From assembly GCA_019233975.1 (NCBI GenBank), contig JAFALY010000029.1, forward strand, positions 62,001 through 126,000: 64,000 nucleotides of DNA, in the 5' to 3' direction. This document shows positions 4,791 to 20,596 of the stretch, in pieces. Each line of letters starts with the position of its first letter. The first letter of the stretch is position 1. The position numbers and the translations under genes were made by a program. This stretch comes from Alphaproteobacteria bacterium. Lineage in GTDB: Bacteria > Pseudomonadota > Alphaproteobacteria > UBA9219. The notes beneath the pieces are model-generated. The model was not told where the DNA came from and did no database searches. It saw only the letters and a program-made list of their open reading frames with translations.

Positions 4791-5330
4791 ATGCTTGGTA
4801 TCGGACAAAAATTCCCGACTTTCGACCTGACCGCCGCCGTTTCGAACGACGTCGCCTCGGCTTTCAAGCCGGTCAATAACGGCACGTACAAGGGCAAGTG
4901 GATTGTCGCCTTTTTCTGGCCAAAGGACTTCACCTTTGTCTGCCCGACTGAAATCGCCGAATTCGGCAAGATGACCAAGGAATTTTCTGATCGTGAAGCG
5001 CAAGTGCTGGGCTTCAGCATCGACTCGGAATTCGTTCACCTGGCGTGGCGTCAAAACCACAAGGACCTAAACAACCTGCCGTTCCCGATGGTTTCCGACA
5101 TCAAGCGCGAATTGTCATCGGCGCTTGGCATTCTGGATCCGAAGGCCGGTGTTTCACAACGCGCGACCTATGTCGTCGATCCCGAAGGCATCATTCGTTT
5201 CGTGATGGTCACGGACCTGAGCGTTGGTCGCAATGTGAAGGAAGTGCTGCGCGTACTTGATGCCCTGCAGACGGACGAACTGTGCCCCTGCAACTGGCAG
5301 AAGGGTGATGCGCCGTTGAAGGTCGCTTAA
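4791..5330 (+). CDS. ahpC: Peroxiredoxin AhpC
   Basis: AhpC is a 2-Cys peroxiredoxin that reduces hydrogen peroxide and organic hydroperoxides in the cytoplasm. This copy has 179 residues, with the peroxidatic cysteine C51 in FTFVCPTEI. Cysteines near the C terminus (C165 and C167 in ELCPCNW) can resolve it. The start is fixed by ACAGGAGAAAACT before the ATG. It is followed by ahpD, which supplies reducing equivalents in bacteria that use AhpD instead of AhpF. Control by the adjacent OxyR is expected. Confidence 0.95.
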   Translation: MLGIGQKFPTFDLTAAVSNDVASAFKPVNNGTYKGKWIVAFFWPKDFTFVCPTEIAEFGKMTKEFSDREAQVLGFSIDSEFVHLAWRQNHKDLNNLPFPMVSDIKRELSSALGILDPKAGVSQRATYVVDPEGIIRFVMVTDLSVGRNVKEVLRVLDALQTDELCPCNWQKGDAPLKVA

Positions 5331-10522: not shown

Positions 10523-10571
10523 TGGTGACCTCGGCGGGATTTGAACCCGCGACCCCCTGATTAAAAGTCAG
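10523..10571 (-). repeat. attL: 3' part of tRNA-Lys, direct repeat copy 1
   Basis: These 49 bases are identical to 20521-20569, the CCA end through the anticodon loop of the intact tRNA-Lys. Beyond the anticodon stem the sequence no longer folds as a tRNA, so this is an attachment-site remnant, not a gene. It marks the left end of the integrated element, 195 bases before the integrase start. Confidence 0.95.
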
Positions 10572-10691
10572 GGAACCATCTTTCCTGCTGAGCTTTCTTG
10601 ATACCACAAGAAACAGGTGATATGCTGTTTTGTGGCTTAATTAATTGATATTTAGATGCTATCTAAGCTTCATCCTGTTTCAGGCAGTAGT

Positions 10692-10736
10692 GCTACATTT
10701 GCTACCCCAATTGTTACCCAAGTGATGGGGTAGCAA
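10692..10736. repeat. Left-end integrase arm-type repeats
   Basis: GCTACCC at 10701 is followed exactly 12 bases later by GTTACCC at 10713. A GCTACAT stands at 10692 and an inverted GGGGTAGC at 10727. The same GCTACCC pair with 12-base spacing occurs at the right end of the element. Direct repeats at both ends, inside the attachment cores, are typical binding sites for the N-terminal domain of tyrosine integrases. The rest of 10572-10765 shows only the integrase leader. Confidence 0.6.
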
Positions 10737-10765
10737 GAAAATAAGGAAATGGAGTTTGATCAGCT

Positions 10766-12076
10766 ATGCGGTTTACAGACAAAGCAATCAATGGGCTCAA
10801 AACTAAGCCGACACGCTATGAGGTTTGGGAGGGGAATGGCTTCGGGATGCGCGTGTCGCCACGTGGCACCAAGACGTGGGTATGGGTTTATCACTTTCAA
10901 GGGCGCTCACGTCGCCTAACAATAGGAACCTATCCAAAGATTGGTTTGGCCGATGCCCGCATAAAGCTTGCTACAGCCAACAAATTACTCAAACAGGGTG
11001 TTGATCCAGCCGAACAAGAGGTTAGACGCAATAAGGCTGAAAGATTGGCCGAAACAGTTTCTGAACTTGTTGAAGCTTATCTCGATAAACATGCGCGTCC
11101 TAAAAAGCGCAGCGCAGCGGAAGATGAGCGCATGTTGCGTAAGGATGTTTTACCTGCCTGGGGGCGACGTAAGGCAAACAATATAACCCGTAAAGATGTC
11201 ATAGCTCTTCTTGACCGAATTGTTGATCGTGGCGCTGGCGTTAGTGCCAACCGAACATTAGCCACAGTCCGTAAAATGTTTAATTGGGCTGTATCGCGCG
11301 ACTTGGTGCCCGCTAATCCCTGTGCGGCCATCGAAGCGCCGGGTAAAGAGAGCCAGCGTGATCGTGTGTTAAGCAGCGATGAAATCAAGGCATTGTGGCT
11401 TTCTCTGTCTAAGCCCAAGCTCCCCATGTCCCCAGAAGTTCGGCTGGCTCTGAAACTTCAGCTTGTGACCGCACAACGACGCGGAGAAGTTATCAGCGCC
11501 AAATGGGATGAGTTTGATCTTAAGGAAAAGATATGGACGATTCCAGCTGAGAAGGCAAAAAACAAAATCTCCCACCGTGTTCCTCTATCCGAATTTGCCA
11601 TCACTATTCTGGCCGAGATCAAAAACCTGCAAGATGAAAAGCAGAATGACAAAGACACTATATCTAAAGACAAAGAAAATCAGGACATCTCAGGTAATGC
11701 CGAAACCGTATGCTGGCTGTTTCCTTCACCACGCGCAAACATGCATATAACGGGGCCAGCCGTTAATCACGCAGTGCGCCGCGCGATTAAGGCCCAAAAT
11801 CCGGAAGAACAGTTAGATGTTTGTGACACCGTGCCGCACGATCTGCGCCGTACTGCTGCAAGCCACATGACTGAAATTGGCTTCAGTCGCCTAACTGTTT
11901 CAAAAATCCTTAATCATGTTGAGAAGGGTGTAACCGCTGTTTACGATCGCTATTCCTATGACAAAGAAAAACGGAATGCACTCAATGCATGGGGGGCTAA
12001 GCTACGCGAAATTATAATGGCGGAGAATCGGGCGGCAAACATTTTGAATTATACGTCACGCAAAGGTAGAAAATGA
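10766..12076 (+). CDS. Tyrosine recombinase / P4-type integrase
   Basis: This 436-residue integrase has the DUF4102-like N-terminal domain of P4-type enzymes (residues 1-90, with WVWVYHFQGRSRRLTIGTYP). A SAM-like core-binding domain follows (about 100-190), and then the catalytic domain. Catalytic residues are visible: R238 or R239 in AQRRGEV, H358 and R361 in PHDLRR, H384 in LNHVEKG, and the nucleophile Y393 in AVYDRYS. It inserts the element into the 3' end of tRNA-Lys. An insertion of about 25 lysine-rich residues lies near 290. It overlaps the next gene by four bases. Confidence 0.96.
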   Translation: MRFTDKAINGLKTKPTRYEVWEGNGFGMRVSPRGTKTWVWVYHFQGRSRRLTIGTYPKIGLADARIKLATANKLLKQGVDPAEQEVRRNKAERLAETVSELVEAYLDKHARPKKRSAAEDERMLRKDVLPAWGRRKANNITRKDVIALLDRIVDRGAGVSANRTLATVRKMFNWAVSRDLVPANPCAAIEAPGKESQRDRVLSSDEIKALWLSLSKPKLPMSPEVRLALKLQLVTAQRRGEVISAKWDEFDLKEKIWTIPAEKAKNKISHRVPLSEFAITILAEIKNLQDEKQNDKDTISKDKENQDISGNAETVCWLFPSPRANMHITGPAVNHAVRRAIKAQNPEEQLDVCDTVPHDLRRTAASHMTEIGFSRLTVSKILNHVEKGVTAVYDRYSYDKEKRNALNAWGAKLREIIMAENRAANILNYTSRKGRK

Positions 12077-12807
12077 CAGTGAAAAATAATAACCGAACAA
12101 TGAGTAGAACCCATCATTATGCAAAATGGAAAAGGTCACAGTTTCATAAAGATGATGCAGAAATGCAAAAGCAAGGCAGGGAGAACATTCGGGCATTAAA
12201 GCACGAGCGCTATGAAGAAATAATTGGTATAAAATCCCCCGATCAAGACTTTAGAGATGCTCTTGACGTTGCTGTCCTTAAAGGTCTGTTCACATCGTGG
12301 ATTCCAAAACTGAAAAATGTTCAAAAAAGAAAGATTCTATCTAACACCACCGACATAAAGAAACTCACCCAGAGCTTAAAGAGCATTAAAATATCCCACA
12401 AGCATCTACGAAATGCATGGCTCGTTTATGGGGGCGTGTGGGGAAATGCTCCAGCACATATTGAAGATGCTCTTCTTGTAAATATTGAGTTAGTAGCTTT
12501 CTACCGATCAGCCCTCGATGATGCAAAAAAAGTTTATTCCATTACGAGTATGCGAGGTGTACCCAAGCAAGAAGCATCACGCATCTTCACGCAAGACCTT
12601 GCCGAAGTTTTTAGCAGGGTAACAGGGAAGAAAGCGCATATTCTGCGTGACGATGCAAAAGCTGGGCAAACAAAAGAGGGAATTTTTTCTGGCAAATTCT
12701 CAGAACTAATCGAAGCAATTCATGCGGACATACCACATAAGTTTTTAATCAAAGAAAAAAGCACGCGTTTGGAAACAATTAGAAAATATCTTCAAAACCG
12801 CGCCTAA
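12073..12807 (+). CDS. Unrecognised element protein
   Basis: The 244-residue lysine-rich protein overlaps the integrase stop by four bases, so it is translated with it. It looks mostly helical (KHERYEEIIG, KNVQKRKILSN, LVNIELVAFYRSALDDAKK) and has no signal peptide or membrane span. A final region, RLETIRKYLQNRA, is basic. Base composition is clearly AT-rich. I recognise no family; position suggests a role in integration or maintenance, but that is a guess. Confidence 0.7.
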   Translation: MTVKNNNRTMSRTHHYAKWKRSQFHKDDAEMQKQGRENIRALKHERYEEIIGIKSPDQDFRDALDVAVLKGLFTSWIPKLKNVQKRKILSNTTDIKKLTQSLKSIKISHKHLRNAWLVYGGVWGNAPAHIEDALLVNIELVAFYRSALDDAKKVYSITSMRGVPKQEASRIFTQDLAEVFSRVTGKKAHILRDDAKAGQTKEGIFSGKFSELIEAIHADIPHKFLIKEKSTRLETIRKYLQNRA

Positions 12808-12880
12808 AACCTCAGGCAATAAATCGGTCAAAATTTATTTAGCAGGCGATTTAACGCCCGATACCAGGCGCCCTTAGTTG

Positions 12881-12915
12881 CTCCATCTTGCTCGTCAGTG
12901 AAACAACTGATGGAG
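12881..12915 (+). promoter_or_regulatory. Hairpin covering the alpA ribosome site
   Basis: CTCCATC (12881-12887) pairs perfectly with GATGGAG (12909-12915), and TTG with CAA outside it. The right arm includes the start of the GGAGGG Shine-Dalgarno for the AlpA gene at 12923. In the folded RNA translation of this excisionase-like regulator would be reduced. Confidence 0.45.
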
Positions 12916-12922
12916 GGCAACA

Positions 12923-13105
12923 ATGAACGGCGATGACCGAATAATTCGCGAACCTGAGCGTCGTAAGAAAACGGGGCTTTCACGGGCAACATGGTGGCGA
13001 TTGGAACGCGACGGCAAGGCCCCTAGGCGCCGAAAACTTTCGGCAAATGCGGTCGGTTGGCTCGCAAGCGAAATCGACCGTTGGCGTGAGAGCCTTTTCC
13101 AATAA
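12923..13105 (+). CDS. alpA: AlpA-family excisionase/regulator
   Basis: This 60-residue protein has the MerR-like helix-turn-helix of AlpA: RKKTGLSRATWWRLERDGKAPR, then NAVGWLASEIDRW. In P4-like satellites AlpA activates excision and integrase-linked functions. The good ribosome site GGAGGG lies before the ATG, possibly inside a hairpin. Its position between the integrase module and the replication genes is the standard place. Confidence 0.92.
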   Translation: MNGDDRIIREPERRKKTGLSRATWWRLERDGKAPRRRKLSANAVGWLASEIDRWRESLFQ

Positions 13106-13153
13106 AAGCATGGTCATTTTTCAATCCACATACCCTGGAGCAGGAAGAAAACA

Positions 13154-14179
13154 ATGCCTAGAACAGAAAACCAAAATGAAAGTTACGACCGCATTTGCGT
13201 GCTTTCGCACTCACGCCTCCTTACGAAAAAATGGCTCTCTGATGGAACCATCGAAGGCGCACCAAAAGCCAAATATTTTGGAATCAACATTCTCAGCGTC
13301 AGATCGTTTGAAATGCTTGTACGATTATTGCAGCGTTTGCAAACTAGACCTTGCAGCGCGATATTGCGCGGCATGTTCTGTGGATGGGATAATGTTCAGA
13401 CATTCGATCCCAGCGCACCCCCCAAGCGCATCCGCCGCACACTTGGGATTTTCACCGATCAGCCGCTCCACGCCGTGATGTTCGATGTCGATGATTTTGA
13501 AACAACCATCGACCCCACCGTAAATCCGCAGGCTGCGTGTGAAGAGTTTGCCCGCCGATGTCTTCCACCAGAATTTCAAATCGCATCATATTTTTGGCGA
13601 CTTTCGTCAAGCGCGGGTCATCCCAGCAAGGACAGAAAATTGCGAGCGCACATTTGGTTCTGGCTCAAGAATCCAGCGACGAGCGGGGAGTTAAAAAGCT
13701 GGGCTAGGCGTCTGAAACTTCAAGTAGACACAAAATTATTCAACCCAGTTCAAATCCATTTCACTGCTAACCCTCTCTTTGAATCCGGTGTCGTCGACCC
13801 TGTCCCATGCCGTTCTGGCGTCGTGTGTGGCATCGTGGGCGATGAGGTCGAAATTGTCATCACACCAGCACAATCATCGGCCAGCCGCCTTCCCCAAGGC
13901 TTCTTGAAGTTACGCGCGTTGCCATCGCAATTGACACGCAGTGACGCGCTCCGTGCTCTGAAACGTGCTGCGCGCATCGTTGCCCAAACGCCCAAAGGTG
14001 AGCGGAATCATCAGCTTTACCTTCAAATCAGGCGGCTCAATCATTTTCTTCCGGACCGGCTCTTGATCGAAGAGGTCGCAAGAAAAATGTCGCACGCCGC
14101 CAGTGTCGCAGGGCTTTCACAGACAGAAATCATCGCCACGGTTGTCAGCGCCTTGAGCAAGGTGGTGATCAATGACTAA
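13154..14179 (+). CDS. Primase-like replication protein (AEP superfamily)
   Basis: The protein has 341 residues. An AVMFDVDDFE strand with D111 and D113 gives the hhDhD metal-binding motif. SSSAG around 150 leads to LRAHIWFWL with H166, matching the sxH motif of archaeo-eukaryotic primases. The N-terminal 100 residues and the helical C terminus are not recognised. It overlaps by eight bases the DUF3631 ATPase gene, which acts as its probable helicase partner. Together they would start replication of the excised element. Confidence 0.7.
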   Translation: MPRTENQNESYDRICVLSHSRLLTKKWLSDGTIEGAPKAKYFGINILSVRSFEMLVRLLQRLQTRPCSAILRGMFCGWDNVQTFDPSAPPKRIRRTLGIFTDQPLHAVMFDVDDFETTIDPTVNPQAACEEFARRCLPPEFQIASYFWRLSSSAGHPSKDRKLRAHIWFWLKNPATSGELKSWARRLKLQVDTKLFNPVQIHFTANPLFESGVVDPVPCRSGVVCGIVGDEVEIVITPAQSSASRLPQGFLKLRALPSQLTRSDALRALKRAARIVAQTPKGERNHQLYLQIRRLNHFLPDRLLIEEVARKMSHAASVAGLSQTEIIATVVSALSKVVIND

Positions 14180-15593
14180 TGATCTGAAAAACATTGTTGC
14201 CAACACCGCCATAAAGTCAACGGACGTTGCCGAGCATCTTGACCAACTTGTCAATCAAGTCAAAACCGATGTGGGTGCACCGTTTGAGCCGGATGCGCTT
14301 GATGCCATCGCCAGCGTCAAAAACATCAATCCGGCAGAATATGAACGCTTACGCGTCAAACTGAAACAGGCAGGTTTCAACCGCTTGGGTGAACTAGACA
14401 AGGCACTTGAGCGCCTTGAGAGAGAATCTGGCGCCCATGATTTCTCCGGACAAGGCAATGCGCTGCAAATCTCTGATGCCGTACCCTATCCAGAACCCGT
14501 AGATGGAGCAGAACTTCTTGAGGAACTAACACAAGCCGTTAGGCGGCATGTTGTTCTTTCGGAAGAGGCCGCGCTAGCCATTGCGCTTTGGGTGATTTTT
14601 ACATATGTGTTCGACGTGTTTTTTATCGCACCAATTTTGGCAATTCAATCGCCGGAAAAGGGGTGCGGTAAAACTACGTTGCTTGATGTTCTTGCAGCAC
14701 TTGTATCCCGCCCTCTTAGTGCGTCAAATATAACTTTTGCCGCATTGTTCCGCACTATCGAAGCGGCAACGCCCACTCTGTTAATCGACGAGGCTGACAC
14801 ATTTGCCCAGAATAATGACGAATTGCGCGGTATCTTGAACTCTGGTCACCGGAAAGGTGGCGCTGTCATTCGAACGGTTGGCGAGAATCATACGCCGCAA
14901 AATTTTGCGACATGGTGTCCGAAGGTTATCGCATCAATCCGGAAACTGCCAGACACGTTGCAAGACCGTTCTATTGTTATTCCCCTGCAACGTAAACGTG
15001 CAGATGAAAAAGCTGATCCGTTCCGTGGTGACAGAGCCGGACACTTACATGCTATTGCCTCAATGGTTTGTCGTTGGGCACTGGATAATCGCGATATACT
15101 CGCCGACTACGAGCCAGAAATGCCTGCCTGTATCTTTAATCGCACAGCAGACAACTGCAGGCCGTTGTTGGCTATCGCCGAAGTTATCGGAGGCACTTGG
15201 GCAGAGAAGGCGCGTTCCGCTATGCTGGAGCTGAATACAAAAGACCGCGATGAGCAAGAATCTTTCGGAATCCAAATTCTTGCCGATATTCGCGAGATTT
15301 TTAGTCGAGAACTGTCTGGGAAATTCAAATCGGATACACTGTCTGATTATTTGCGCTCTATGGAAGGGCGTCCATGGGCAGACTGGAATCGAGGTAAGGG
15401 TATGGTGCCTACCACCCTTGCAAATCTGCTCAAGCCTTTTGGCATTAAGCCATCGACCAAGCGATTTACAGCGAATGACACCGCAAAAGGGTATGAGCGA
15501 GATCAGTTCATCGAAGCGTGGACACGGTATCTTCCTCCACAAGAGACAACTGAGCCGTCACGCCGTAACAATCCCCATCAACCAATATGCTAA
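14172..15593 (+). CDS. DUF3631 P-loop ATPase, replicative helicase-like
   Basis: This 473-residue protein has Walker A SPEKGCGKT at about 160-168 and Walker B LLIDEADT with D206/E207. Then comes NDELRGILNSGHRKGG, diagnostic of DUF3631. An arginine-rich segment (DTLQDRSIVIPLQRKR) follows where sensor and arginine-finger residues are expected. DUF3631 proteins sit beside primases in alphaproteobacterial phages and satellites and are taken to be DNA helicases. The N-terminal 100 residues are helical. After its stop there are 163 bases without a gene. Confidence 0.88.
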   Translation: MTNDLKNIVANTAIKSTDVAEHLDQLVNQVKTDVGAPFEPDALDAIASVKNINPAEYERLRVKLKQAGFNRLGELDKALERLERESGAHDFSGQGNALQISDAVPYPEPVDGAELLEELTQAVRRHVVLSEEAALAIALWVIFTYVFDVFFIAPILAIQSPEKGCGKTTLLDVLAALVSRPLSASNITFAALFRTIEAATPTLLIDEADTFAQNNDELRGILNSGHRKGGAVIRTVGENHTPQNFATWCPKVIASIRKLPDTLQDRSIVIPLQRKRADEKADPFRGDRAGHLHAIASMVCRWALDNRDILADYEPEMPACIFNRTADNCRPLLAIAEVIGGTWAEKARSAMLELNTKDRDEQESFGIQILADIREIFSRELSGKFKSDTLSDYLRSMEGRPWADWNRGKGMVPTTLANLLKPFGIKPSTKRFTANDTAKGYERDQFIEAWTRYLPPQETTEPSRRNNPHQPIC

Positions 15594-15756
15594 GGGGTTT
15601 CCTTGGCCGTCACAATGAAATGCTTTGTGACGACTGACATTCTATCGACCTAATTACCTTTCAATACTTGTTACGGAGTGACGGCTGAAAATCCGTGTCC
15701 ATTGGAAAATATACCTGCTGCACGTGTAAATCTGATACAATCGCGCATTAGCACTG

Positions 15757-16101
15757 ATGCAGCATCCTATGCCGAAAGACGACACACTACGCCGCGCAGC
15801 GTGCCTCCTTGCCCCAGACCGGCCAAACGCCTTTCTAGCTCAGGCCCTGCGCCGCCCGCGCGGCACGATACGTGCGTGGCTCTCCGGCCATCGGCGGGCA
15901 CCACCATTCTACCTCCGGCAAATTGCTGCAATGCTTTACAACCGCACCGGCGACCTTGCCTTAAGTTTTGCGCAGATTATCGAACGCCGCGCCGAGTTGC
16001 AGGAACGAGAACCAAAACTTGCTCGTGGCTTCTGTGTTGTCAAGATGCGCAACGGGATTTTGTGTGATATACGTTGGCGCGGGGGTCGGGGAAGATTTTA
16101 A
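15757..16101 (+). CDS. Small helix-turn-helix protein
   Basis: The 114-residue basic protein contains FLAQALRRPRGTIRAWLSGHR (about residues 24-45), which reads as a helix-turn-helix, followed by a helix RQIAAMLYNRTG and a basic tail (RWRGGRGRF). A competing overlapping frame from 15678 has proline- and serine-rich, low-sense sequence and is rejected. Local GC is higher than in its neighbours. It may regulate the element or bind its origin; the family is unknown. Confidence 0.6.
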   Translation: MQHPMPKDDTLRRAACLLAPDRPNAFLAQALRRPRGTIRAWLSGHRRAPPFYLRQIAAMLYNRTGDLALSFAQIIERRAELQEREPKLARGFCVVKMRNGILCDIRWRGGRGRF

Positions 16102-16145
16102 TGCCGGGTAAATAAAGGCAAGAGGAACCATTGGGGATTTAGACA

Positions 16146-16916
16146 ATGAACATACCAAGCCCAATCGAAAAGCTCATCCCTGATGTCGATGTCTTATTAG
16201 GGCTGGAACCAGAAGAGCTGGCTTGGTTCCTTTTGAAGGGGGCAAAAGAAAAACTTCAAAATGGCATGTTTCAACCAGGCACTATAATTGAGAAATTTGC
16301 TGGATCTGGTATGATCGCAACCGCCGAGTTTTGTTACCCAGCCAACAAACGGCATGAAGTAGATATAGCTCTAGCTGAGGCATGGAACTGGCTTCGCGTC
16401 AATTCTCTTGTAATTCCTGCACCAGGAATGAACGGCAATAATGGTTGGCTGATGTTCAGCCGCAGGGCACTCAGAATTATTGATGACAGAGATTTTCAGG
16501 CATTCAAAGAAGCAGCAGCTTTCCCAAGATCATTATTACACCCAATTATTGCAGACAAGACTTGGTTAGCACTTGCAAGAGGTGACTTGGAAGAGGCAGT
16601 ATTTTTTGCATTTAAAACTGTCGAAGTAAGGGTACGGCAGGCCGCCCGATTGGATGCTAAAGATATTGGTGTAGCCCTAATGCGCAAGGCTTTTGATGCT
16701 GAGTCCGGCCCACTTACGGATAAATCCCAGCCAGAGTCAGAACGATTATCTCTTGCGCATCTTTTTGCGGGGGCCATTGGATCTTATAAAAATCCTCACT
16801 CGCATCGCACAGTAAGCATAGCAGATCCCAGGGAGGCTCAAGAGATGGTTTTGCTAGCTACTCACCTTTTGAGAATAGTCGATTCACGAGAAGGGGCCAG
16901 TACATCAAATGAGTGA
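16146..16916 (+). CDS. TIGR02391-like (Ymh) protein, HEPN-type motif
   Basis: The protein has 256 residues. The second half, AVFFAFKTVEVRVRQAA ... LFAGAIGSYKNPHSHR, follows the conserved core of the TIGR02391 family, found on phages and genomic islands. K215-N-P-H-S-H220 resembles the R-x4-H catalytic motif of HEPN ribonucleases, but with Lys for Arg. The first half (1-130) is a winged-helix-like region, with a probable DNA- or partner-binding role. It overlaps the next gene by eight bases, implying a two-protein system. RNase activity is inferred only. Confidence 0.65.
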   Translation: MNIPSPIEKLIPDVDVLLGLEPEELAWFLLKGAKEKLQNGMFQPGTIIEKFAGSGMIATAEFCYPANKRHEVDIALAEAWNWLRVNSLVIPAPGMNGNNGWLMFSRRALRIIDDRDFQAFKEAAAFPRSLLHPIIADKTWLALARGDLEEAVFFAFKTVEVRVRQAARLDAKDIGVALMRKAFDAESGPLTDKSQPESERLSLAHLFAGAIGSYKNPHSHRTVSIADPREAQEMVLLATHLLRIVDSREGASTSNE

Positions 16917-17574
16917 AATATCAAAATTTTCCGGTGCAATATTAACCGATATTCTTTCCGCTCTTATGGTGCCCGGGGCCAGTACCGCAGGAGAACTTCT
17001 TCAAAATATTTTTAAGAGGCGTATAGAAAAAGCAAGAGAGATCCTTATCCAAGAAATACGGGGTGGAGAGAATGATATTCTGAATGTTGAGGAATGTGAT
17101 GAAGTAGTGGCAATTGTTTACCGTTACATGCGTGCGGCACAAGAAGGGGCTGCTCGGATGAATCTACGCTTGTTGGCACGCATTATCGCTGGACAGAAAG
17201 CCCTTAAGGCATTGAAGGCTGATGAATTTCTGTATTACGCCGATCTGATTGCTTCGTTGCGTCACGAAGAGATAGTGCTATTGGGATCTTATGCTCGTGT
17301 TTTGGCAATTGAAACTAAAGTGGTTCGAGAAAACAGCCTAGATCCTTCAAGAGCGGAGAACTCTGCAGAACGCAGAGCGACAAAGTCTATAGAAGATGTG
17401 CTAATACCGGATGTGTTTTCTTCTCGATCTGAGTTATGGGCGACTGTAAACGCTGTTTCTCGAACAGGGCTGATGACAATTGCTTCCCCATCTTTTGATG
17501 GACCATACTTTGAATTAACTCCAATTTTCACCAAAGTGAATGTGCTGGTGTCATTTGAAGATTTAGAAGCGTAG
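16909..17574 (+). CDS. Unrecognised partner protein, helical with C-terminal winged-helix-like part
   Basis: The 221-residue product starts eight bases inside the previous gene, so the two are translationally coupled. Residues about 20-130 look helical (GELLQNIFKRRIEKAREILI, then NLRLLARIIAGQKALKALKA and ADEFLYYADLIASL). The final 60 (SELWATVNAVSRTGLM ... YFELTPIFTKVNVLV) read like a winged helix. I know no family. By position it may be the antitoxin, inhibitor or sensor for the HEPN-like protein. Confidence 0.65.
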   Translation: MSEISKFSGAILTDILSALMVPGASTAGELLQNIFKRRIEKAREILIQEIRGGENDILNVEECDEVVAIVYRYMRAAQEGAARMNLRLLARIIAGQKALKALKADEFLYYADLIASLRHEEIVLLGSYARVLAIETKVVRENSLDPSRAENSAERRATKSIEDVLIPDVFSSRSELWATVNAVSRTGLMTIASPSFDGPYFELTPIFTKVNVLVSFEDLEA

Positions 17575-17594
17575 GCAAGCCCCCATAATTCGAG

Positions 17595-17933
17595 CTACTC
17601 GTCCCCTGATTTTTTATCACGCCTGTTGAAGCTCGGCTCTTTTTCTAACCAAGGCTTTTTCATGCGGAGCGAGTGCGCGGAATTGTAGCCGCGGATTCTC
17701 TCACGTATTACCAGAAAGACAAAACCACCGATGAGAGCACCTTTGCATAGCTCACCGACTGAGAAATATTTTGACAGAAAATTATAAACAAAAAACCCGG
17801 CCAATCCGATGGCCACGTATTTTAGAAATCGGACTATTAATGGAGAAGCCTCGATTAATAAGTCAAGCCAAACGGGAATTGTCACAATCAGTACAAACCC
17901 GAGGAGAATGCCAAGAGCGATCTCTATTATCAT
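17595..17933 (-). CDS. Small inner-membrane protein
   Basis: The 112-residue protein has three hydrophobic segments: about residues 3-26 (IALGILLGFVLIVTIPVWL), 35-55 and 63-80 (ALIGGFVFLVI). A long basic, charged tail probably faces the cytoplasm. It lies 18 bases after the lipoprotein gene in the same direction, so the two form an operon facing the HEPN-like pair. No family is recognised. Confidence 0.65.
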   Translation of the reverse strand: MIIEIALGILLGFVLIVTIPVWLDLLIEASPLIVRFLKYVAIGLAGFFVYNFLSKYFSVGELCKGALIGGFVFLVIRERIRGYNSAHSLRMKKPWLEKEPSFNRRDKKSGDE

Positions 17934-17951
17934 AAGCTAACCAAGTGGTGT

Positions 17952-18623
17952 CTATTTCTTACAAATCCCGTCGGCGAGGTTTGCTGAAATCTTATCTAGC
18001 GCTGCCTTCGTTTTTGTACTTAGTTCTTCAAACCTTTGCGGGTCAGATTCCGAATAGTGAGATAATCTCTCTTGGCATGTCCAGTCCCTGATCTTATTGA
18101 CATAGGCACCATCTGATGCCCTATAAACTTTGACACGAGCTTTCGTGCACAAGACAGTCTCAAACATTCCCTCGCTGATGCCGATCTCTGGTGCTCCAGC
18201 CTCAATGACGTAGTTAGCTTTCACGCTCGTAATATCCGGCATAACGGAAGTGGTTTTATCAAGCCACTGTTTATCAGTATCGGCAATAACTTCTTTGTAT
18301 ACTTGACCCTTGATCCCGCAAGTATCAACTTTTCGCGCAATCTGGCTGGCAAAATAGTTTTCGATTTTTTCCTGGGCCAGCGCATCGGTTGCATTTTGCC
18401 CTTTGGTTTGGGATGAAGAAGACGTAGCCGCCGCCTCGATCAAGGGGCCAAGTGCACCAAACATAACACCAGTAGAATTACTGGTGTGCTCAACCTGTAT
18501 ATTTCCAACAGGCACGACCAGCGCATATGATCCGCGATCCGGAGGTGGGAACTGCGCGAAATCGCCTGCGCAGCCAGTTAATGACAGAATTACTCCTAAT
18601 GTTGAGATATACCGTTTTTTCAT
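17952..18623 (-). CDS. Lipoprotein of unknown function
   Basis: The start is placed at the ATG at 18623 (GGGGCGGGGC before it), since the next 20 residues form a lipoprotein signal: MKKRYIST, a hydrophobic core and the lipobox LTGC. The 223-residue product has a Ser/Thr-rich stretch near 75 and four more cysteines that could form disulfides. Its mature part is otherwise soluble and periplasmic. An earlier in-frame start at 18665 would bury the signal. A lipoprotein cargo gene is unusual in a satellite; surface exclusion or receptor blocking is possible but unproven. Confidence 0.7.
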   Translation of the reverse strand: MKKRYISTLGVILSLTGCAGDFAQFPPPDRGSYALVVPVGNIQVEHTSNSTGVMFGALGPLIEAAATSSSSQTKGQNATDALAQEKIENYFASQIARKVDTCGIKGQVYKEVIADTDKQWLDKTTSVMPDITSVKANYVIEAGAPEIGISEGMFETVLCTKARVKVYRASDGAYVNKIRDWTCQERLSHYSESDPQRFEELSTKTKAALDKISANLADGICKK

Positions 18624-19086
18624 AGCCCCGCCCCAGATGGTTTGACCTGAAGCCACCAAGCACAAGGCTTGGTGACCGGAGGTTCAAAACCGCTTAACGA
18701 GAAACGGCGCGGCGCTTTTAGCCGCGAGGCTTGGACATAACGCCACCCTCCGGCCATAAGACCGAAAGGCGGCATCTGTGAAATCCTGAGTTATGCTCTC
18801 AATATCCCTAGAAATAAGAAATGGCACAAAGCGAAAAGCATACCGCCTACCGCTTATACTTTCTCTATTTGTCGGGAATTAAGTTCATCGCTTTGGACTC
18901 CTAACGGCCATAGATGCCTTGGCCGCTCGTTAAAGAGGTTTTGAAGCCCCAGCACTGGCAACAACGCCAGCACATGCACTGACGCTAAACGAAACCAGGT
19001 GGTGTGGTCAATCGGCGTTTATGAAGAATGTGGTGATACCTAATCAAAAAAGATATTCTCGATGTTTAATGGGTGTATTTGAGAGT
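18624..19086. other. Gene-free stretch with weak structure
   Basis: No reading frame here has both sense and a ribosome site. Several imperfect inverted repeats are present: CGCGGC with GCCGCG near 18707-18726, and TAACG-GCC with GGC-CGTTA around 18902-18935. GC content is higher at the left and drops sharply past 19030. It may contain the lipoprotein promoter (minus strand) and an RNA, but I cannot support a specific call. Confidence 0.4.
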
Positions 19087-19116
19087 TTTACAAGTTAAGG
19101 GATTTTTGCCTTTAAA
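19087..19116 (+). promoter_or_regulatory. Candidate promoter of the abi-linked RNA
   Basis: TTTACA at 19087-19092 and TTTAAA at 19111-19116 are separated by 18 bases in a very AT-rich tract. Transcription would begin near 19123. The match is moderate and other A/T hexamers nearby could serve instead. Confidence 0.35.
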
Positions 19117-19122
19117 AATTTT

Positions 19123-19257
19123 GTTTTGTTACAAATGGTTATATTTCCTTCTGCCAAGGCCGTTAATTTTGTTATTGCTTTTTTAAGCATCACCGGCATA
19201 TCGTCATGTCAACATGACTGGCCCCTCTGCACATCTGTGTACGGGCCAGTTTTCATT
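19123..19257 (+). ncRNA. Candidate abiF-type non-coding RNA
   Basis: Three hairpins follow one another directly before the abi gene. They are TGCTT/AAGCA with a T4 loop (19176-19189), GTCATG/CATGAC with a TCAA loop (19203-19218), and a long terminator hairpin to 19250 followed by TTTTCATTT. Abi_2/AbiF-family genes are known to be preceded by a conserved structured RNA (the abiF motif), proposed to act as the antitoxin. Position and terminator fit that. The 5' end is estimated from the promoter guess. I have not compared it with the published consensus. Confidence 0.55.
19217..19257 (+). terminator. Terminator of the abi-linked RNA
   Basis: ACTGGCCC (19217-19224) pairs perfectly with GGGCCAGT (19243-19250). 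Inside, TGCAC pairs with GTGTA around an ATCT loop. TTTTCATTT follows. The hairpin ends 23 bases before the abi ATG, so abi is expressed either by read-through or from its own start directly behind it; a TAATAT hexamer lies at 19262. Confidence 0.7.
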
Positions 19258-19273
19258 TGTGTAATATCTCCCG

Positions 19274-20248
19274 ATGCCGATTCCTTACAGTAAACCCCAC
19301 CTGAATTTTGAACAACAAATCGCTTTACTCAAAAGCCGTCACATGATGGTTACAGATGAAGCAAAAGCCAAAGAGTGTTTGCAGCGGATAGGGTATTACC
19401 GGCTTAGTGGATATTGGTATCCATTTCGGCAAACAGAGGCCCGCCAAGCCGGGGATGGTAAACTAAGTTATGTCGTGGTGGATCAGTTCCGTTATGGCAG
19501 TGATTTTAAAAATGCCGTTGATCTTTATGTATTCGACAAAAAACTTCGACTTCTTTTTCTCGACGCGCTGGAGCGGATAGAAGTGGCGTTGCGCGTCGAT
19601 GTTGCTTCCCACTTAGGCAGGTTTGATCCTTTTGCATATAGCAATGTTGATCTACTACATGGAAATTTTACTAAAAAGGTAAGCTCCGTCACAGGGCAAA
19701 CAGGATATACCGAATGGCTATCTCTCTTTAATAATCGGATAGTCAAATCAAAAGAAGAATTCATCCTTCACTACAGAGAAACTTACGATCCTCCTTTACC
19801 TATATGGATTGCTGTTGAATTATGGGACTTCGGAATGCTCTCGAAGTTTCTTTCAGGCATGCGCCACGATGATTTGGCGGTTATCGCCGCGCGATACGGT
19901 ATTCCGCGCCCAGAGTTACTTACGAGCTGGATGCGGAGCATGAACCTTGTTCGAAATATTTGCGCGCACCATGCCCGTTTGTGGAACCGTTCGCTCACAG
20001 ATCGGCCCAAACTACCCAAGAACAATGAAATACCTTTATTGAACCCATTAGTGGATGATCAGTTTGCTAATTACCGCCTTTACGGTGTGGCCGCTGTCAT
20101 GTGCTACTTTTTGCGGACAATTAATCCCACCACTTCATGGATAGATCGTCTCAAAGATCATCTTGCCACATTTCCAGTGGCTTCCGGTGTGAGCATCCAA
20201 CAGACCGGCTTTCCGGCAGGATGGGAGAACCTACCTCTTTGGAATTAA
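19274..20248 (+). CDS. Abi_2-family (AbiD/AbiF-like) abortive-infection HEPN protein
   Basis: This 324-residue protein has the Abi_2 layout. It begins with KPHLNFEQQIALLKSRHM and RIGYYRLSGYWYPFR, followed by LYVFDKKLRLLFLDALERIEVALRV. The HEPN catalytic motif R227-x4-H232 lies in NLVRNICAHHARLWN. Proteins of this family abort phage infection by RNA cleavage; recent work links them to RNA antitoxins and to the ancestry of Cas13. No Shine-Dalgarno precedes the ATG; a TAATAT hexamer seven bases before it would even permit a leaderless transcript. It is the last cargo gene of the element. Confidence 0.88.
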   Translation: MPIPYSKPHLNFEQQIALLKSRHMMVTDEAKAKECLQRIGYYRLSGYWYPFRQTEARQAGDGKLSYVVVDQFRYGSDFKNAVDLYVFDKKLRLLFLDALERIEVALRVDVASHLGRFDPFAYSNVDLLHGNFTKKVSSVTGQTGYTEWLSLFNNRIVKSKEEFILHYRETYDPPLPIWIAVELWDFGMLSKFLSGMRHDDLAVIAARYGIPRPELLTSWMRSMNLVRNICAHHARLWNRSLTDRPKLPKNNEIPLLNPLVDDQFANYRLYGVAAVMCYFLRTINPTTSWIDRLKDHLATFPVASGVSIQQTGFPAGWENLPLWN

Positions 20249-20520
20249 AGAAATCTCGGACAATCAAATTAATAGCCATCGAAAATGCATGGCGGCGGGA
20301 ATTCAAGAGGGTAGCGTGAAATCTTCCAGAGTGGAGTCCGATAGCTTCTGAGCGGCCAAACAATCGACATTTCAAAAACGTCATATCATCTCGGTAAACC
20401 GTGACAAATCATTGTGTGGCGGTAATCAATCAAGGATCATGGTTTGATGATTTCGCTACCCATATTGCTACCCCTATGGAATTCAGAGTTGGGGCATAAT
20501 GTATAACTTATTGATATTAT
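20249..20520. other. Right-end non-coding region of the element
   Basis: No credible gene is visible after the abi stop. Short overlapping frames here lack ribosome sites. The last 70 bases hold the right-end repeats described separately, then the attachment core inside the tRNA. Confidence 0.5.
20455..20474. repeat. Right-end integrase arm-type repeats
   Basis: GCTACCC at 20455 and GCTACCCC at 20467 repeat at 12-base spacing, as at the left end (10701/10713). They lie 47-66 bases inside the right attachment core, in the place expected for arm-type sites. Confidence 0.6.
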
Positions 20521-20569
20521 TGGTGACCTCGGCGGGATTTGAACCCGCGACCCCCTGATTAAAAGTCAG
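20521..20569 (-). repeat. attR: direct repeat copy 2 inside tRNA-Lys
   Basis: This is the 49-base copy identical to 10523-10571. Here the repeat is part of the complete tRNA gene, so insertion restored a functional tRNA. Distance between copies is 9,998 bases, the length of the element. Confidence 0.95.
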
Positions 20570-20596
20570 ATGCTCTACCGGCTGAGCTACGAGGTC
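20521..20596 (-). tRNA. tRNA-Lys (anticodon UUU)
   Basis: The minus strand folds into a standard 76-nt tRNA. The acceptor stem GACCTCG pairs with CGAGGTC, and TAGCTCAG forms the D arm. Anticodon loop CTTTTAA puts UUU at 20563-20561, the T arm is GGGTTCAAATCCC, and CCA is encoded. It reads lysine codons AAA/AAG. Its 3' half is the integration site of the satellite element to the left. Confidence 0.97.

Follow-up and report, generated by a model that had tools for sequence, protein, structure and literature searches.

AbiF has been proposed as an ancestor of Cas13, and to our knowledge few examples of its partner RNA have been characterised. In C. difficile, the RNA RCd22 neutralises AbiF both in cis and in trans (PMC12373285). 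PDB entry 8vz6 is an Abi family protein that a review describes as the PbAbiF-RNA complex (PMC12737573). Among the open-access papers searched, just one mentions an abiF RNA in a phage apart from an AbiF system: it reports an abiF sRNA (RF03085) in the genome of cyanophage S-CREM1 and counts three phages in Rfam (PMC9964418). Here we describe a locus within a 64,000-nucleotide stretch of DNA (the window) that is very likely an RNA-antitoxin/HEPN-toxin phage-defence module of the AbiF type. A ~10-kb element integrated in tRNA-Lys bears it as cargo at one of its ends. A 46-base RNA is probably the antidote of the neighbouring AbiF-type toxin. Table 1 collects the features discussed below.

Table 1. 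Features of the AbiF-type locus, its mobile element and related RNAs. Positions are those of the window unless a record (L number) is named.
Feature	Position	Strand	Basis or remark
abi_2 gene, AbiF/AbiD-type HEPN protein, 324 aa, R227-x4-H232	19274..20248	+	PF07751, invariant motif, PDB 8vz6
Class-1 AbiF partner RNA, 46 nt	19211..19256	+	R1 63.6 bits, covariation, fold z=-5.45
Outer stem of class-1 RNA	19217-19224 paired with 19243-19250		
Internal loop of class-1 RNA	CUCU 19225-19228 opposite AC 19241-19242		
Inner stem of class-1 RNA	19230-19232 paired with 19237-19239		
U-tract of class-1 RNA	19250-19253		
Promoter-like TTGCTT (19175-19180), 18 nt, TATCGT (19199-19204)	19175..19204	+	6 nt ahead of RNA
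att-like direct repeat, copy of tRNA-Lys 3' end	10523..10571	.	Exact 49-bp repeat
att-like repeat, second copy, within tRNA-Lys	20521..20569	.	Exact 49-bp repeat
tRNA-Lys (anticodon TTT), integration target	20521..20596	-	ARAGORN; Rfam tRNA 76.3 bits
Tyrosine integrase of element	10766..12076	+	PF00589 1.2e-23, PF13356 2.2e-20
Class 2 RNA	L024-L058, L064, about 5000-5090	minus	Just downstream of abi_2
AbiF-type orphan RNAs in or beside phage tRNA genes	L128 899-944, L136 3315-3360, L151 7417-7462, L299, L352, L359 1501-1540		Unrelated viruses

Membership of the encoded protein in the Abi_2 family, as claimed in the initial annotation together with its R227-x4-H232 motif, is well established by profile searches. 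PF07751 (Abi_2) matches the reading frame over its entire length (E=1.6e-55, 188.7 bits, profile 1-184 of 184), PADLOC assigns it to AbiD (1.7e-67), and both R227 and H232 of the HEPN R-x4-H motif are invariant across 26 aligned proteins. PDB 8vz6 aligns with residues 3-323 (E=1.3e-40), which makes the protein of the PbAbiF-RNA complex a full-length homologue (PMC12737573), with an identity of about 30% as estimated by eye on the alignment. Inspection for features of Cas13 reveals a single conserved R-x4-H in the 324-aa protein rather than two HEPN motifs, and no direct repeats of a type VI CRISPR array beside abi_2 within 18900-20520. By homology, the window protein is predicted to be a toxic ribonuclease that serves in phage defence.

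Directly 5' of abi_2 lies a strong terminal stem-loop, the 46-nt class-1 RNA, which folds at -21.7 kcal/mol (z=-5.45). The slightly wider interval 19193-19258 also beats its shuffles (z=-4.2), and 19100-19200 shows no folding advantage over its own (z=+0.48). In a comparison with the closest relative, whose protein is 64% identical, the DNA is clearly similar only from the RNA's AACATGACTGG leader onward. The initial annotation had instead placed a three-hairpin RNA from 19120 behind a TTTACA (19087-19092)/TTTAAA (19111-19116) promoter; neither this promoter nor the first two hairpins are conserved, and the RNA is better described as a single hairpin starting at about 19211. A strong terminator had also been claimed; the stem-loop is strong, and the U-tract consists of only four U followed by C. 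The promoter-like element nearest the RNA matches consensus at 7/12 positions, and a strict scan of 19050-19300 returned no sigma-70 promoter of 9/12 and no terminator with at least five T. The promoter and terminator of the window copy are therefore weak by consensus, and their assignment rests on comparison with relatives. At the toxin start, the reported lack of an obvious ribosome site was confirmed. Twenty bases separate the U-tract, which ends at 19253, from the ATG; the initial annotation had given 23 after the terminator. The suggested check with the abiF RNA model came back empty: an Rfam search gave no RF03085 match at gathering, and none even at E<=10.

To describe the RNA by comparison, a class-1 alignment of 18 sequences, window included, was used as the basis of a covariance model, R1. 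The consensus, AACAyGrCCGGCyCCUCUGCA..UGUACGGGyCGGyUUUC, occurs upstream of abi_2 in 19 relatives. The alignment contains 11 pairs with 99% of cells paired, whereas slid versions reach only 21-44%. Compensatory change on both sides is seen in 7 of the 11 pairs, and double-change cells number 24 against a shuffled mean of 6.9, with none of 500 shuffles as high. Covariation thus demonstrates the structure at the level of sequence and strongly supports the RNA partner that the initial annotation had put forward as a candidate. Between the stems, an internal loop of CUCU versus AC is conserved, and the adjoining position is mostly G.U or A.C. R1 scores the window copy as listed in Table 1, this copy being itself one of the 18 model rows.

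A survey of 72 relatives of the window abi_2 then reveals how RNA and toxin are arranged. A partner RNA is present in 66 of the 72 by automatic call and in 70 with inspection, and three ARRANGEMENTS recur: class 1 upstream (19 automatic calls), class 1 convergent downstream (12) and class 2 convergent downstream (35). Among the six uncalled relatives, L065, L067, L076 and L080 show an RNA by eye, L074 carries a hairpin of another kind, and the L079 record is a short fragment. Convergent class-1 RNAs lie on the opposite strand 3' of the toxin in Zoogloea, Kushneria, Desulfuromonas, Roseobacteraceae and others. Class 2 RNA (CAACACGGCCCCnnUCGG...GCUnAGGGGUUUUUU) is convergent downstream of abi_2 in a Pseudomonas-Burkholderiales-Marinomonas clade, mostly with its own TTGACG/TATAAT-like promoter. 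In bacterial class-1 copies, a sigma-70-like promoter immediately precedes the AACA leader at a nearly constant distance, with a mean match of 8.25/12 for 20 upstream copies and 9.2 for the 12 convergent copies, against 5.6-5.7 when shuffled.

When RNA class and position are mapped onto the maximum-likelihood tree of the toxin, 5 changes suffice, where the minimum possible is 3 and the shuffled mean is 28.3. By this sequence comparison, RNA and toxin have diversified together. The convergent RNA genes and the small number of tree changes indicate that the RNA need not be a leader of the toxin mRNA and that read-through is not essential. That is to say, the proposed tie of the toxin to read-through or a leaderless start does not generalise, since the RNA is a separate, opposite-strand downstream gene in about two thirds of relatives. 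In two clades the convergent RNA is a separate gene with a promoter of its own, which argues for action in trans, and an antitoxin acting in trans fits the arrangements best. As a conserved, covarying structure linked to abi_2, the RNA groups with the AbiF-type partner RNAs; together with co-diversification and homology to PDB 8vz6, covariation lends good support to the original reading, in which a HEPN toxin of the AbiF type is paired with an RNA.

Bacterial R1 matches of at least 36 bits from two scans adjoin abi_2 or a remnant of it in five of seven cases. R1-type RNAs with no abi_2 within 1.5 kb were observed in two bacterial genomes (L211 and L213, about 1501-1548), one near housekeeping genes and the other after an hsdS-like gene. 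A second R1 match in the window's own genome (L208, 24.7 bits) is without the conserved 3' half of the motif and was taken as chance, and matches L204-L207 look like plain terminators or chance. Other Abi_2 genes, among them that of Lactococcus phage TP712 (L351 600-670), are preceded by hairpins of further sequence classes (also L005, L007 and L008), so the diversity of AbiF partner RNAs exceeds that described here.

The module resides in a mobile element. Between the att repeats, which mark the 3' end of the tRNA gene, are the tyrosine integrase, a DUF3631 protein, a Hypoth_Ymh (PF09509) protein and the RNA-abi_2 pair, which occupies the end next to the tRNA. Integrase and repeats at a tRNA 3' end together define a tRNA-targeted integrative element, and from this organisation the RNA-abi_2 module is cargo of a ~10-kb element spanning 10523-20569 in tRNA-Lys(UUU). 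In a related genome, an int-alpA RNA (RF02996, 32.4 bits, just under cut-off; L001 449-514) was seen at a distance of about 1 kb from abi_2 and its neighbouring RF03085-like RNA.

Homologous systems suggest how the pair may work, as regards RNA binding, inhibition, RNase activity and defence alike. The promoter just upstream would produce the ~46-nt hairpin RNA, which would bind the AbiF-type ribonuclease, probably via the conserved CUCU/AC internal loop, such that the toxin stays inactive. Binding by the class-1 RNA, a class absent from Rfam, is proposed by analogy with other AbiF RNAs, of which RCd22 alone has been demonstrated to neutralise its toxin (PMC12373285). In the upstream arrangement, the terminal 3' hairpin may also limit read-through or transcription into the toxin gene. 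Infection would upset the balance between RNA and toxin, and the free toxin would then cut RNA and abort the infection.

Viruses carry the same RNAs. A peptide scan of viral contigs found no relative, so a DNA pattern was used to locate the viral RNAs. To this end, IMG/VR was searched with a pattern of the class-1 loop sequences and matches were scored by R1; its contigs are predictions whose records can be fragments, some possibly proviral. R1 reaches at least 35 bits in 38 viral records (about 30 distinct by sequence), and across their full length PF07751 is present in 1 and absent in 37. A control pattern with permuted loop letters gave 0 viral matches, versus 22 for the real pattern. In the outer stems of the viral copies, pairing holds in 136 of 140 cells, and swaps of every kind are represented (counted over five pairs unfixed or partly fixed by the pattern). 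Neighbours vary, from a major head protein gene to positions after ribonucleotide reductase, DNA primase/helicase or homing endonuclease. In two contigs (L128 and L136) the RNA sits inside a phage tRNA array and the next tRNA begins at the very next base; in L151 it follows a tRNA by 2-4 nt. Viral class-1 copies have as a group no promoter of their own (5.8/12 versus 5.2 when shuffled), and a blastn search of named phages with the class-1 consensus gave no credible match. Class 2 orphans occur in viral contigs L352, in front of tRNA-Thr, and L354.

The RF03085 type extends this pattern to cultured phages. An RF03085-like pattern with at least four further outer-stem pairs has 17 matches in viral contigs, and PF07751 is found in 1 of 19 records carrying such an RNA (the 17 and two weaker). 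Above the RF03085 cut-off are Acinetobacter phage Acj61 (58.0 bits), Mycobacterium phages Thibault (54.9) and LittleE (49.9), Aeromonas phage PZL-Ah8 (50.1) and Rhizobium phage RHEph21 (38.0), with Whirlwind (36.7) and DuncansLeg (36.3) just under it. Abi_2 is absent from all nine phage records examined, which include these seven named cultured phages, each a complete genome with RF03085 at 36 bits or more. Whirlwind carries the RNA within a tRNA array, and RHEph21 and PZL-Ah8 carry it between capsid-module genes. A faecal phage sequence (L363 1460-1545) carries a tandem pair of RF03085-like hairpins, recalling the two motifs in RCd22 of C. difficile. A region of phage sk1 DNA reportedly protects phage 712 from AbiF, according to the title of a paper from 2000; RF03085 has no match in sk1, where a non-coding stretch with two tRNA-like genes was noted (L350 27380-28040).

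RNA copies without the toxin gene, as expected of a decoy, are seen in 37 of 38 viral and 9 of 9 phage records, and their solitary state suggests that an orphan RNA may protect the phage against the toxin. On balance we favour the view that solitary AbiF-antitoxin RNAs of phages (class 1, class 2 and RF03085), present in phages of many kinds, would be decoys that bind the host AbiF ribonuclease and so prevent abortive infection, and that they would be made from structural-gene transcripts or tRNA arrays rather than from their own promoter. A decoy role would be the simplest explanation, as with pseudo-ToxI (PMC3475682) and Racr (PMC10651486). That the orphans are instead what remains of AbiF modules since lost, or hairpins that have come to serve as terminators or as signals for RNA processing, is possible if somewhat doubtful. 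Many viral copies lie directly after a stop codon, where terminators lie, they come without their own promoter, and some of the contigs may be proviral or fragments. However, remnants should decay, yet the viral stems pair almost throughout; a plain terminator has no need of an internal loop; the copies occupy unrelated sites in unrelated phages (T4-like, T7-like, mycobacteriophages, tRNA arrays); and three different AbiF-linked RNA classes recur as viral orphans.

For the bacterial RNA, an unlikely reading is that the hairpin is only a cis attenuator or terminator that lowers toxin expression, with no RNA acting in trans. Its position between promoter and gene in the window and 19 relatives would agree with this, as would the lowering of abiF transcription by the RNA's terminator in C. 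difficile (PMC12373285). In contrast, 47 of the 72 relatives carry the RNA downstream on the opposite strand, in convergent orientation, where it cannot be a leader; moreover, the loop sequence is conserved and not the stem alone, and the loop-permuted pattern lost every viral match. A GC-rich hairpin that stands by chance ahead of an unrelated gene and has no functional connection with it would suit the silence of Rfam and the empty strict promoter and terminator scans at the locus, but is contradicted by covariation, by an RNA beside nearly all relatives and by tree congruence, which leave it exceedingly improbable.

The preferred reading, an RNA antitoxin with viral decoys, adds to the known AbiF systems a compact 46-nt partner class missing from Rfam, whose RNA relocates around the toxin yet tracks the toxin tree. 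Orphan copies are widespread in phages, complete cultured genomes included, and how phages escape AbiF can now be tested directly in named phages. Zilberzwige-Tal et al. have AbiF covariance models (named in PMC12804078) that may already include class 1 or class 2. Like type III toxin-antitoxin systems (ToxIN), from which phages escape via the antitoxin-like pseudo-ToxI (PMC3475682), the locus would pair an RNA antitoxin with a ribonuclease; in contrast, ToxI is a tandem-repeat RNA and ToxN does not belong to the HEPN proteins, whereas the locus has a HEPN toxin and one RNA copy, with no direct repeats in 18900-20520. Racr RNA anti-CRISPRs (PMC10651486) are likewise solitary phage-encoded RNAs that mimic the RNA of a defence system, their target being CRISPR-Cas and the target proposed here AbiF. 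S-CREM1 (PMC9964418) also has RF03085 in a phage genome, but this concerns one phage, with no antitoxin or decoy role proposed, and does not extend to classes 1 and 2. RF03085 and the window RNA are both short stem/internal loop/stem hairpins beside abi_2 that also occur in phages without abi_2; they differ in that the RF03085 loop sets A opposite CAAAUC and its model leaves the window RNA unmatched. The AbiF-RCd22 system of C. difficile (PMC12373285) shares an Abi_2 toxin, a structured upstream RNA and a terminator between RNA and gene. It differs in that RCd22 is ~98-132 nt long with two RF03085 motifs, whereas the window RNA is one 46-nt hairpin with a CUCU/AC loop, from a system whose relatives include convergent RNA genes.
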